Of a stretch of DNA of 64,000 bases, positions 6,717 through 7,777 are shown one piece after another. The DNA is from Sphingomonas sp. EC-HK361 (GTDB lineage: Bacteria; Pseudomonadota; Alphaproteobacteria; Sphingomonadales; Sphingomonadaceae): NCBI RefSeq assembly GCF_902498785.1, contig NZ_LR701494.1, positions 1,724,540-1,788,539 on the forward strand. Reading direction: 5' to 3'. The first letter of the stretch is position 1. Every line of letters starts with the position of its first letter. The notes under the pieces are model-generated. The model made no database searches. It saw nothing but the letters and a program-made list of their open reading frames with translations, and was not told the origin of the DNA. Position numbers and translations under genes: made by a program.

Positions 6717-7073
6717 GTGAAGGATCGCCACCCCGTCTTGCGAATCGCGCAACTGGTCGCCGGCGTCCTGCTGATCGTCGCAGCGCCGATCGCTTCCCCC
6801 CTGCCCGGCCCGGGTGGGATATTGCTCTTTGCCGGCGGCCTCGTCCTCGTCCTGCGCAACTCGCGGTGGGCGCGGGTGCGGTGGGCGCGGCTGAAGCGGG
6901 GCTGGCCGCGCACCGGGCAACTCGTCGATCGCGCCATGCGGCGGCCGAGCGCGCTGCGGCGCCACGCGCGCACCAGGGCGGAACGCGCCGCGTTGACTTC
7001 GGCGGGTCCGTCGCCTATGCGCACCCCAACAAAGGCCGTCCCCGTGGCGGCCTTATTCAATTCAGTGTCGGGA
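6717..7073 (+). CDS. Small PGPG-type membrane protein with no stop of its own
   Basis: From a GTG at 6717 the frame encodes one or two hydrophobic helices (LRIAQLVAGVLLIVAAPIAS, GGILLFAGGLVLVL) separated by a PLPGPGG turn and followed by a strongly basic tail (RWARVRWARLKRGWP). Small proteins like this are common just before rpmH in sphingomonads, as far as I recall; the function is unknown. There is no stop codon until 7568, the end of rnpA, which is in the same frame. The end given here is simply the base before the first rnpA ATG. Either it is truly fused to RnpA, or it ends by a mechanism or sequence difference I cannot see. The rpmH promoter overlaps its 3' part. Confidence 0.45.
6993..7021 (+). 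promoter_or_regulatory. Putative rpmH promoter
   Basis: A sigma70-like pair, TTGACT (6993-6998) and TATGCG (7016-7021), with an ideal 17-base spacer, lies about 60 bases before the rpmH start. This fits a promoter for the rpmH-rnpA-yidD-yidC operon. Only sequence resemblance supports it. Confidence 0.45.
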
Positions 7074-7568
7074 ATGAACGATGAAGCGGACCTTTCAGCC
7101 GAGCAACCTGGTGCGGGCACGCCGCCACGGCTTCCGCTCGCGGATGGCGACGGTCGGCGGTCGCGCGGTGATTCGCGCGCGCCGCAACCGCGGCCGCAAG
7201 AAGCTGTCGGCCTGATCCGCCAGCCGCTGTCGCGGCTGACCCGCCGATCCGAATATCTGGCAGCCAATGCCGGGCGTCGCGCACCGATGCCCGGCTTTGT
7301 GCTGTTGGTGAAGGATCGCGGCGATGGCGATCCGACGATTCGCTACGGCATCACGGTATCGAAAAAGGTCGGCAACGCGGTCGTCCGCAACCGGATGAAG
7401 CGCCGCTTCCGCGAACTCGCGCGATCGGTGATCGCAGAACAGGGCGTGGCCGGCGCCGACCATGTTTTGATCGGCCGCCAGAACGGCATCGAGCGCGACT
7501 GGGATACGCTCGGCGCGGACCTCGCCAAGGCGCTGGGCAAGCTGAAGCCGCGGACCCCAGCCCGGTGA
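7074..7568 (+). CDS. rnpA: Ribonuclease P protein component
   Basis: RnpA is the protein subunit of RNase P, which matures the 5' ends of tRNAs. The family homology starts near 7218 ([17 protein letters not shown]) and includes [24 protein letters not shown], the RNA-binding RNR motif. There is no ATG, GTG or TTG at the expected place. The first canonical in-frame start upstream is ATG 7074, which gives 164 residues with a 46-residue extension that contains the whole rpmH gene in another frame. The alternative is a CTG at 7212 that overlaps the rpmH stop (CTGA) and gives the usual 118 residues. The stop overlaps the yidD start. Function is certain; the start is not. Confidence 0.85.
7081..7215 (+). 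CDS. rpmH: 50S ribosomal protein L34
   Basis: A 44-residue protein, short and extremely basic, with the invariant L34 sequence: [19 protein letters not shown], then [19 protein letters not shown] and KKLSA at the end. L34 is part of the large ribosomal subunit. Its ribosome-binding site is probably cggga (7069-7073), 7 bases before the ATG. The gene is entirely enclosed, in a different frame, within the open frame that leads into rnpA, whose first ATG lies seven bases upstream at 7074. Confidence 0.97.
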
Positions 7569-7777
7569 TCGCCCGGCTGCTGATCCTGATTGCGCGCGGG
7601 TGGCAGCTCGGCCCTTCGCTCGTCCTGCCCCCGTCCTGCCGCTACCAGCCTTCGTGTTCGGCCTATGCAATAGAGGCGCTTCGCCGCTATGGCGCCGCAC
7701 GTGGGGGCTGGCTCGCGGTGAAACGCATTGCCCGCTGTCATCCCTGGGGTGGGCACGGTCACGATCCGGTGCCGTGA
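7565..7777 (+). CDS. yidD: Membrane protein insertion efficiency factor YidD
   Basis: A 70-residue YidD protein that helps YidC-dependent membrane insertion. Its conserved core PSCRYQPSCSAYAIEAL and CHPWGGHGHDPVP is complete, with the three characteristic cysteines. An N-terminal hydrophobic/amphipathic helix should bind the inner membrane. It begins at GTG 7565, overlapping the rnpA stop by four bases (GTGA), and is followed 16 bases later by yidC. Confidence 0.93.
   Translation: MIARLLILIARGWQLGPSLVLPPSCRYQPSCSAYAIEALRRYGAARGGWLAVKRIARCHPWGGHGHDPVP

Follow-up and report, generated by a model that had tools for sequence, protein, structure and literature searches.

Evidence that rnpA of sphingomonads may start seven bases upstream of rpmH and enclose it in another frame

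The rnpA gene of Sphingomonas sp. EC-HK361 very likely begins at ATG 7074 of the window (the whole 64,000-nucleotide stretch of DNA that was analyzed), with a Shine-Dalgarno sequence (SD) shared between rnpA and rpmH, from which ribosomes would mostly make L34 and, by a minority, RnpA. In the proposed model, a single mRNA would present one SD right before two competing AUGs, and the minority of ribosomes choosing the upstream AUG would produce an RnpA of 164 residues, of which the first ~47 would be read from the L34-coding stretch in the other frame. The SD spacing of ~7 bases suits the rpmH AUG, suggesting that most ribosomes would make L34; we infer that initiation at the -7 AUG does occur, that it is rare and that it sets a low RnpA:L34 ratio. 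Strong L34 initiation and weak RnpA initiation are what SD spacing rules predict, and this fits the needs for each protein. A point against the model is that the SD touches the -7 ATG, which is a poor distance for initiation there.

Layout of the rpmH-rnpA locus

The features of the locus are collected in Table 1. The family matches for rpmH and rnpA (TIGR01030, PF00468, TIGR00188 and PF00825) were above cut-off, and the RnpA core matched TIGR00188 with E 6e-15 and PF00825 with E 3e-21. The rnpA frame, in frame with ATG 7074, was open through the whole of rpmH, and no ATG, GTG or TTG occurred in this frame of the window from 7077 to the RnpA core. These results confirmed two claims of the preliminary description, namely that rpmH lies wholly within the open rnpA frame and that rnpA has no canonical codon at its normal start. 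The same description had called ATG 7074 the only canonical in-frame start, which was wrong: the frame is open upstream as far as a stop at about 6531 and contains GTG 7065, GTG 7044, ATG 7017, TTG 6993 and more, to GTG 6615. Further, non-canonical candidates in the rnpA frame of the window are CTG 7212, which overlaps the rpmH TGA, ATC 7215, CTG 7227 and CTG 7236. The window is not among the clean cases, as its rpmH-rnpA junction carries CTG and ATC and its leader carries GTG codons; the case for it rests on its relatives, the sister L166 among them. After yidD there are ORFs in the yidC and yihA positions, named by the gene order of S. parapaucimobilis. In S. parapaucimobilis YK209 (L081), the genes rpmH-rnpA-yidD-yidC-yihA are carried by a record whose label describes it as a plasmid of 385 kb.

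Table 1. Coordinates of observed and predicted features at the rpmH-rnpA locus of the window
Feature	Position	Strand	Remarks
Likely rpmH-rnpA promoter (predicted)	6993..7021	+	TTGACT (6993-6998), 17 bases, TATGCG (7016-7021)
Leader hairpin	7032..7054	+	AAGGCCG...CGGCCTT; between promoter and start site
Shine-Dalgarno-like GGGA	7070..7073	+	Touches ATG 7074; 7 bases before ATG 7081
-7 start motif ATGAACG	7074..7080	+	Conserved in relatives
rnpA, proposed full CDS from ATG 7074	7074..7568	+	164 aa plus stop
RnpA N-terminal extension	7074..7226	+	rpmH overlap plus short spacer; predicted mostly disordered (AlphaFold2)
rpmH (ribosomal protein L34)	7081-7215	+	TIGR01030 E 2e-21, PF00468 E 1e-21; within rnpA, other frame
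Conserved RnpA core	7227..7568	+	Profile matches to solved RnpA sequences begin at query 52-68
Putative yidD	7565..7777	+	ORF overlapping the rnpA stop; named by S. parapaucimobilis gene order

The RnpA encoded from ATG 7074 was modeled with AlphaFold2. Residues 1-50, the extension, gave block mean pLDDT values of 43-51, and residues 51-160, the core, gave values of 82-91. Eleven solved RnpA sequences were matched by profile, and all of these matches begin at query position 52 or later. The RnpA core is conserved and predicted to be well folded, and the extension probably forms a disordered, passive tail.

Conservation of the -7 ATG and the leader

We compared the locus with relatives drawn from several samples. 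The sphingomonad-like loci were the best 80 of 473 relatives, a sample that leans toward the kin of the window, and one annotated S. parapaucimobilis record was added. rpmH was found in 194 of 196 genomes of the same order, of which 90 were analyzed, and in 135 of 142 class-level genomes, of which another 90 were analyzed; each of these two sets consisted of the 30 best matches and 60 listed rows picked by hand. This gave 262 sequences with rpmH including the window; rnpA was adjacent in 261, L112 was left out, and removal of 4 duplicates resulted in 257 unique sequences. In a FastTree tree of RpmH plus the RnpA core, in which many branches are weak, the window fell in a clade made up of 126 sphingomonad sequences. 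A phylum-wide set was also analyzed, in which 118 of 120 genomes gave a match; 67 loci were fetched and 64 analyzed, three being dropped where the script found no rpmH.

An ATG exactly 7 bases 5' of the rpmH ATG was present in 106 of the 126 clade sequences, and in 105 of these 106 rnpA shared the frame of that ATG and ran through rpmH without a stop. The combination of -7 ATG, register and openness was found in 105 of the 257 unique sequences including the window, all within the clade of 126. The start motif among the 105 was ATGAGCG (56), ATGAACG (29), another ATGA sequence (19) or ATGC (1). The comparison of frame openness and of both ATGs in related species, proposed in the preliminary description, agreed with the nested reading, which is supported beyond one genome by these sequences. 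The lone -7 ATG member of the clade that is out of register, L099, has its rnpA far downstream, with AGGAGG-5-ATG in the rnpA frame about 208 bases past the rpmH start, which looks like a new start that has taken over from the nested one.

The 20 clade members that lack the -7 ATG provide a comparison. Their rnpA was in frame and open in 14 of 20, and the register was broken or an in-frame stop was present in 6 of 20. The difference in open frames between members with and without the -7 ATG (105/106 versus 14/20) had a Fisher p of 5e-5 when relatedness was ignored; after thinning to less than 80% RnpA identity the counts were 49/50 versus 8/14. The codon at the -7 position is GTG in L179, ATA in L095 and AAA or AGA in a group of five that includes one named Rhizorhabdus. 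Outside the clade, the rnpA frame was open through rpmH in a baseline of 14 of 131 sequences, and the three with a -7 ATG (L142, L159 and L160) all had rnpA out of frame. Across the phylum the frame was open through rpmH in 14 of 64 loci, each with a downstream ATG, GTG or TTG. The in-frame open -7 ATG arrangement exceeds chance.

A purine SD-like motif of 3-5 bases ended 0-2 bases before the -7 ATG in 104 of the 105 sequences, placing it ~7-9 bases from the rpmH ATG and nearly in contact with the rnpA ATG. This raises the possibility that the -7 ATGA is an extended SD or a spacing element of rpmH, and that the open frame is a by-product of high GC content. GAGGTGA, which would pair with the 16S 3' end, counts for this reading, as do the 68 of 105 frames expected to be open by chance from the clade codon usage alone. 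However, 105 rather than 68 were open, the ATG was kept while its distance from the SD varied by 0-2 bases, and both the locked register of a variable spacer and the missing downstream starts (see below) would be left unexplained. An extended SD does not fit the locked register and was rejected as a full explanation of the ATGA; we consider this alternative extremely improbable. A coupling ORF ending at the TGA at -6 in the rpmH frame was also rejected: the TGA was present in 105 of 106, and an upstream start in that frame within about 60 bases in just 43 of those 105.

The predicted promoter has a similar layout in the leaders of relatives, as read by eye. The six stem pairs of the leader hairpin were kept in all 39 of 39 aligned leaders, with mostly invariant positions or G-U changes; covariation was small, one pair being changed on both sides in one sequence. 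The GC hairpin follows almost directly after the promoter and is accompanied by a T run in many relatives, resembling a terminator or an attenuator close to the 5' end of the mRNA. An Rfam search of 6900-7700 gave no match with E up to 1.

Upstream of the promoter, a PGPGW/TIGR02611-like gene for a membrane protein, whose matches are below the curated cut-offs, lies in the same frame as rnpA without a stop, forming one ORF at 6717-7568 that crosses the promoter, the leader and rpmH to the rnpA stop, with GTG 6717 or GTG 6615 as possible starts. RnpA might thus begin further upstream than ATG 7074, at the leader GTG 7065 or 7044 or as a tail fused to PGPGW (a single ORF from GTG 6717 or 6615 as far as 7568), and the frame that is open to about 6531 and includes the PGPGW match, together with the same PGPGW-rnpA run-through in the sister L166, would allow it. 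We regard such a start as very improbable, because 42 of the 105 relatives have an in-frame stop before the -7 ATG within 60 bases 5' of rpmH, 31 of them at -13, and because the PGPGW gene ends 5' of rpmH in the remaining relatives for which the search detected it. There its stop falls between -71 and -152, for the most part between -84 and -96, within or close to the -35 box. In L045, L073 and L093 the in-frame stop at -13 leaves the -7 ATG as the only start of seven kinds before the core, consistent with initiation at ATG 7074 in the window.

Spacer register and candidate downstream starts

Among the 105 sequences the RnpA core lay at 20 different distances from the rpmH start, ranging from 158 to 269, all with one remainder modulo 3. 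Twenty spacer lengths imply at least 19 length changes on any tree, and parsimony on the tree used gave 42, with the L099 exception counted. The registers 0, 1 and 2 were found in 39, 57 and 35 of the 131 sequences outside the clade. Translation through rpmH needs a fixed register and reinitiation after rpmH does not, so the locked register argues against the latter.

Sequence differences within the spacer also followed the rnpA frame. There were 67, 58 and 124 differences at rnpA codon positions 1, 2 and 3 among 57 overlapping, non-independent pairs, and pN/pS for the same kind of pairs (57, non-independent) was 0.59 in the rnpA frame versus 1.81 and 1.21 in the other frames. Stops in the spacer were found in 0/49 for the rnpA frame and in 30/49 and 5/49 for the others. 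Judged by these patterns, the spacer is evolving as coding sequence in the rnpA frame. Within rpmH, T was found at 0 of 551 sites at which it would create an rnpA-frame stop versus 513 of 3283 safe sites. The depletion is only supportive, since the same sites are T-poor both in clade members that lack the -7 ATG (2/105) and outside the clade (7/302 in sequences with 65% GC or more; 25/488 with 60% or more). Codon-by-codon constraint on rpmH was set aside, as it is inseparable from codon bias and relatedness.

We searched the region between the -7 ATG and the core for other starts. In 56 of the 105 sequences, the window included, there was no ATG, GTG or TTG, and 14 of these 56 also lacked CTG, ATT, ATC and ATA. 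A downstream ATG, GTG or TTG was present in 18 of the 20 clade members without the -7 ATG. With slightly looser limits, which opened the count 12 bases ahead of the rpmH end instead of 6, it was present in 126 of 131 sequences outside the clade and in 63 of 64 phylum-wide, where the exception, L299, has a closed frame. Among the five exceptions outside the clade, a GTG or ATG lies within rpmH in L129 and L178, and L103, which is near the clade, has only ATC downstream. L089 (ATG-25/GTG-16) and L222 (GTG-7) lie outside the 126-member clade and have a nested open frame with no downstream canonical start, making them possible further nested cases.

A second explanation for the sequences lacking a canonical downstream codon is a non-canonical start used by termination-reinitiation, at CTG 7212, ATC 7215, CTG 7227 or CTG 7236 in the window, giving an RnpA of ~110-118 residues. 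The overlap of CTG 7212 with the rpmH TGA, followed by ATC 7215, is compatible with this, and the annotation of L081 places the rnpA start at an ATC overlapping the rpmH stop. L103 and the clade members L181 and L189, which have neither the -7 ATG nor a downstream ATG, GTG or TTG, seem to need a CTG, ATC or ATT; non-canonical starts may therefore exist in the group, and those of these three sequences are possibly genuine. CTG or ATN was present at the junction in 30 of the 56 sequences without a canonical downstream start. However, 14 of the 56 have no CTG or ATN after rpmH, the junction CTG occurs in just 19 of the 56, and all 44 of the 105 sequences that carry it owe it to a GCC-TGA end of rpmH. 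The nearest sister, L166, has neither the CTG nor the ATC of the junction, and the register is locked although reinitiation would need none. A CTGA or ATC start was accordingly rejected as a general explanation; the CTGA alternative raised in the preliminary description is weak, and we consider reinitiation unlikely.

A third explanation is that rnpA yields two products, a long form begun at the -7 AUG and a short form begun further downstream, in a mix that varies by lineage. A downstream ATG, GTG or TTG before the core accompanies the -7 ATG in 49 of the 105 sequences, so the species concerned may produce a short RnpA. Spacer stretches 5' of any canonical codon were compared in 54 pairs; where both sequences have a downstream start, the differences at codon positions 1, 2 and 3 were 57, 55 and 94, so the third-position excess stays, and for the remaining pairs they were 14, 8 and 34. 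On the other hand, the window has no such canonical codon and would require a non-canonical one. We view the production of both forms as rather doubtful, and initiation of rnpA at ATG 7074 remains the preferred reading.

Comparison with known systems

The ordinary proteobacterial rpmH-rnpA-yidD-yidC operon has the same gene order and proteins as the sphingomonad locus; it differs in that rnpA has its own start after rpmH, as counted above, and in that its register relative to rpmH is not fixed. The preliminary description had considered the arrangement unusual for a proteobacterium, which held among the other proteobacteria sampled and failed for sphingomonads, where the arrangement is ordinary. 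No report of a nested rnpA/rpmH outside Thermus was found in the literature searched, mostly at the level of title listings, and the main text of a ribosome-profiling paper on Zymomonas mobilis (PMC7566282) is silent on rnpA and rpmH. Within the reach of these searches, sphingomonads would be the second lineage with a Thermus-type arrangement. On balance, we favor the view that a two-AUG, one-SD site evolved independently here and was kept in most of the clade, that its fixed ratio ties RnpA to ribosome synthesis and that many rnpA annotations placed after rpmH are wrong. If so, there would be a second case, unrelated to the first, widely conserved and with natural losses that serve as controls, and it would point to a repeatable way of obtaining a lot of L34 and little RnpA from a single mRNA. 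The annotated N-termini of the essential RnpA might then be wrong in sphingomonads, L081 being one such annotation.

The overlap of rnpA and rpmH in Thermus was reportedly described by Feltens et al. in 2003. The Thermus-like architecture suggested for the window in the preliminary description is supported by the conserved -7 ATG, the fixed register, the open frame in 105 of 106 sequences and the species with no other start. According to a 2022 paper (PMC9841429), the Thermus overlap (AUGGAUG) was the only bacterial case described before the E. coli sites of that paper, and expression of both genes has been shown in Thermus. As in the Thermus case described there, rpmH is fully nested in rnpA in another frame, and two close AUGs are supposed to be served by one SD, which for the sphingomonads is our inference. 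The offset is 4 in Thermus and 7 in sphingomonads; both are 1 modulo 3 and give the same frame relation. The feature typical of Thermus, the lack of a conventional rnpA start after rpmH, was found in the window and 55 others of the 105. Unlike the described Thermus site, where the starts are 4 bases apart (ATGGATG), those of the window are 7 bases apart (ATGANNGATG), and the 4-base spacing would be a detail of the Thermus site and not of the kind. The lineage is proteobacterial and, unlike what is described for Thermus, the -7 ATG is absent in 20 of 126 clade members.

The ambiguous start sites of E. coli pqiA and tamA (AUGUG/GUGUG), as presented in that paper (PMC9841429), are similar in that close start codons allow two frames to be translated, in pqiA from one SD. 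They differ in that the start codons overlap directly and in that tamA has two SDs. At the sphingomonad site, the AUGs are seven bases apart and, unlike at pqiA and tamA, both products are known conserved proteins.
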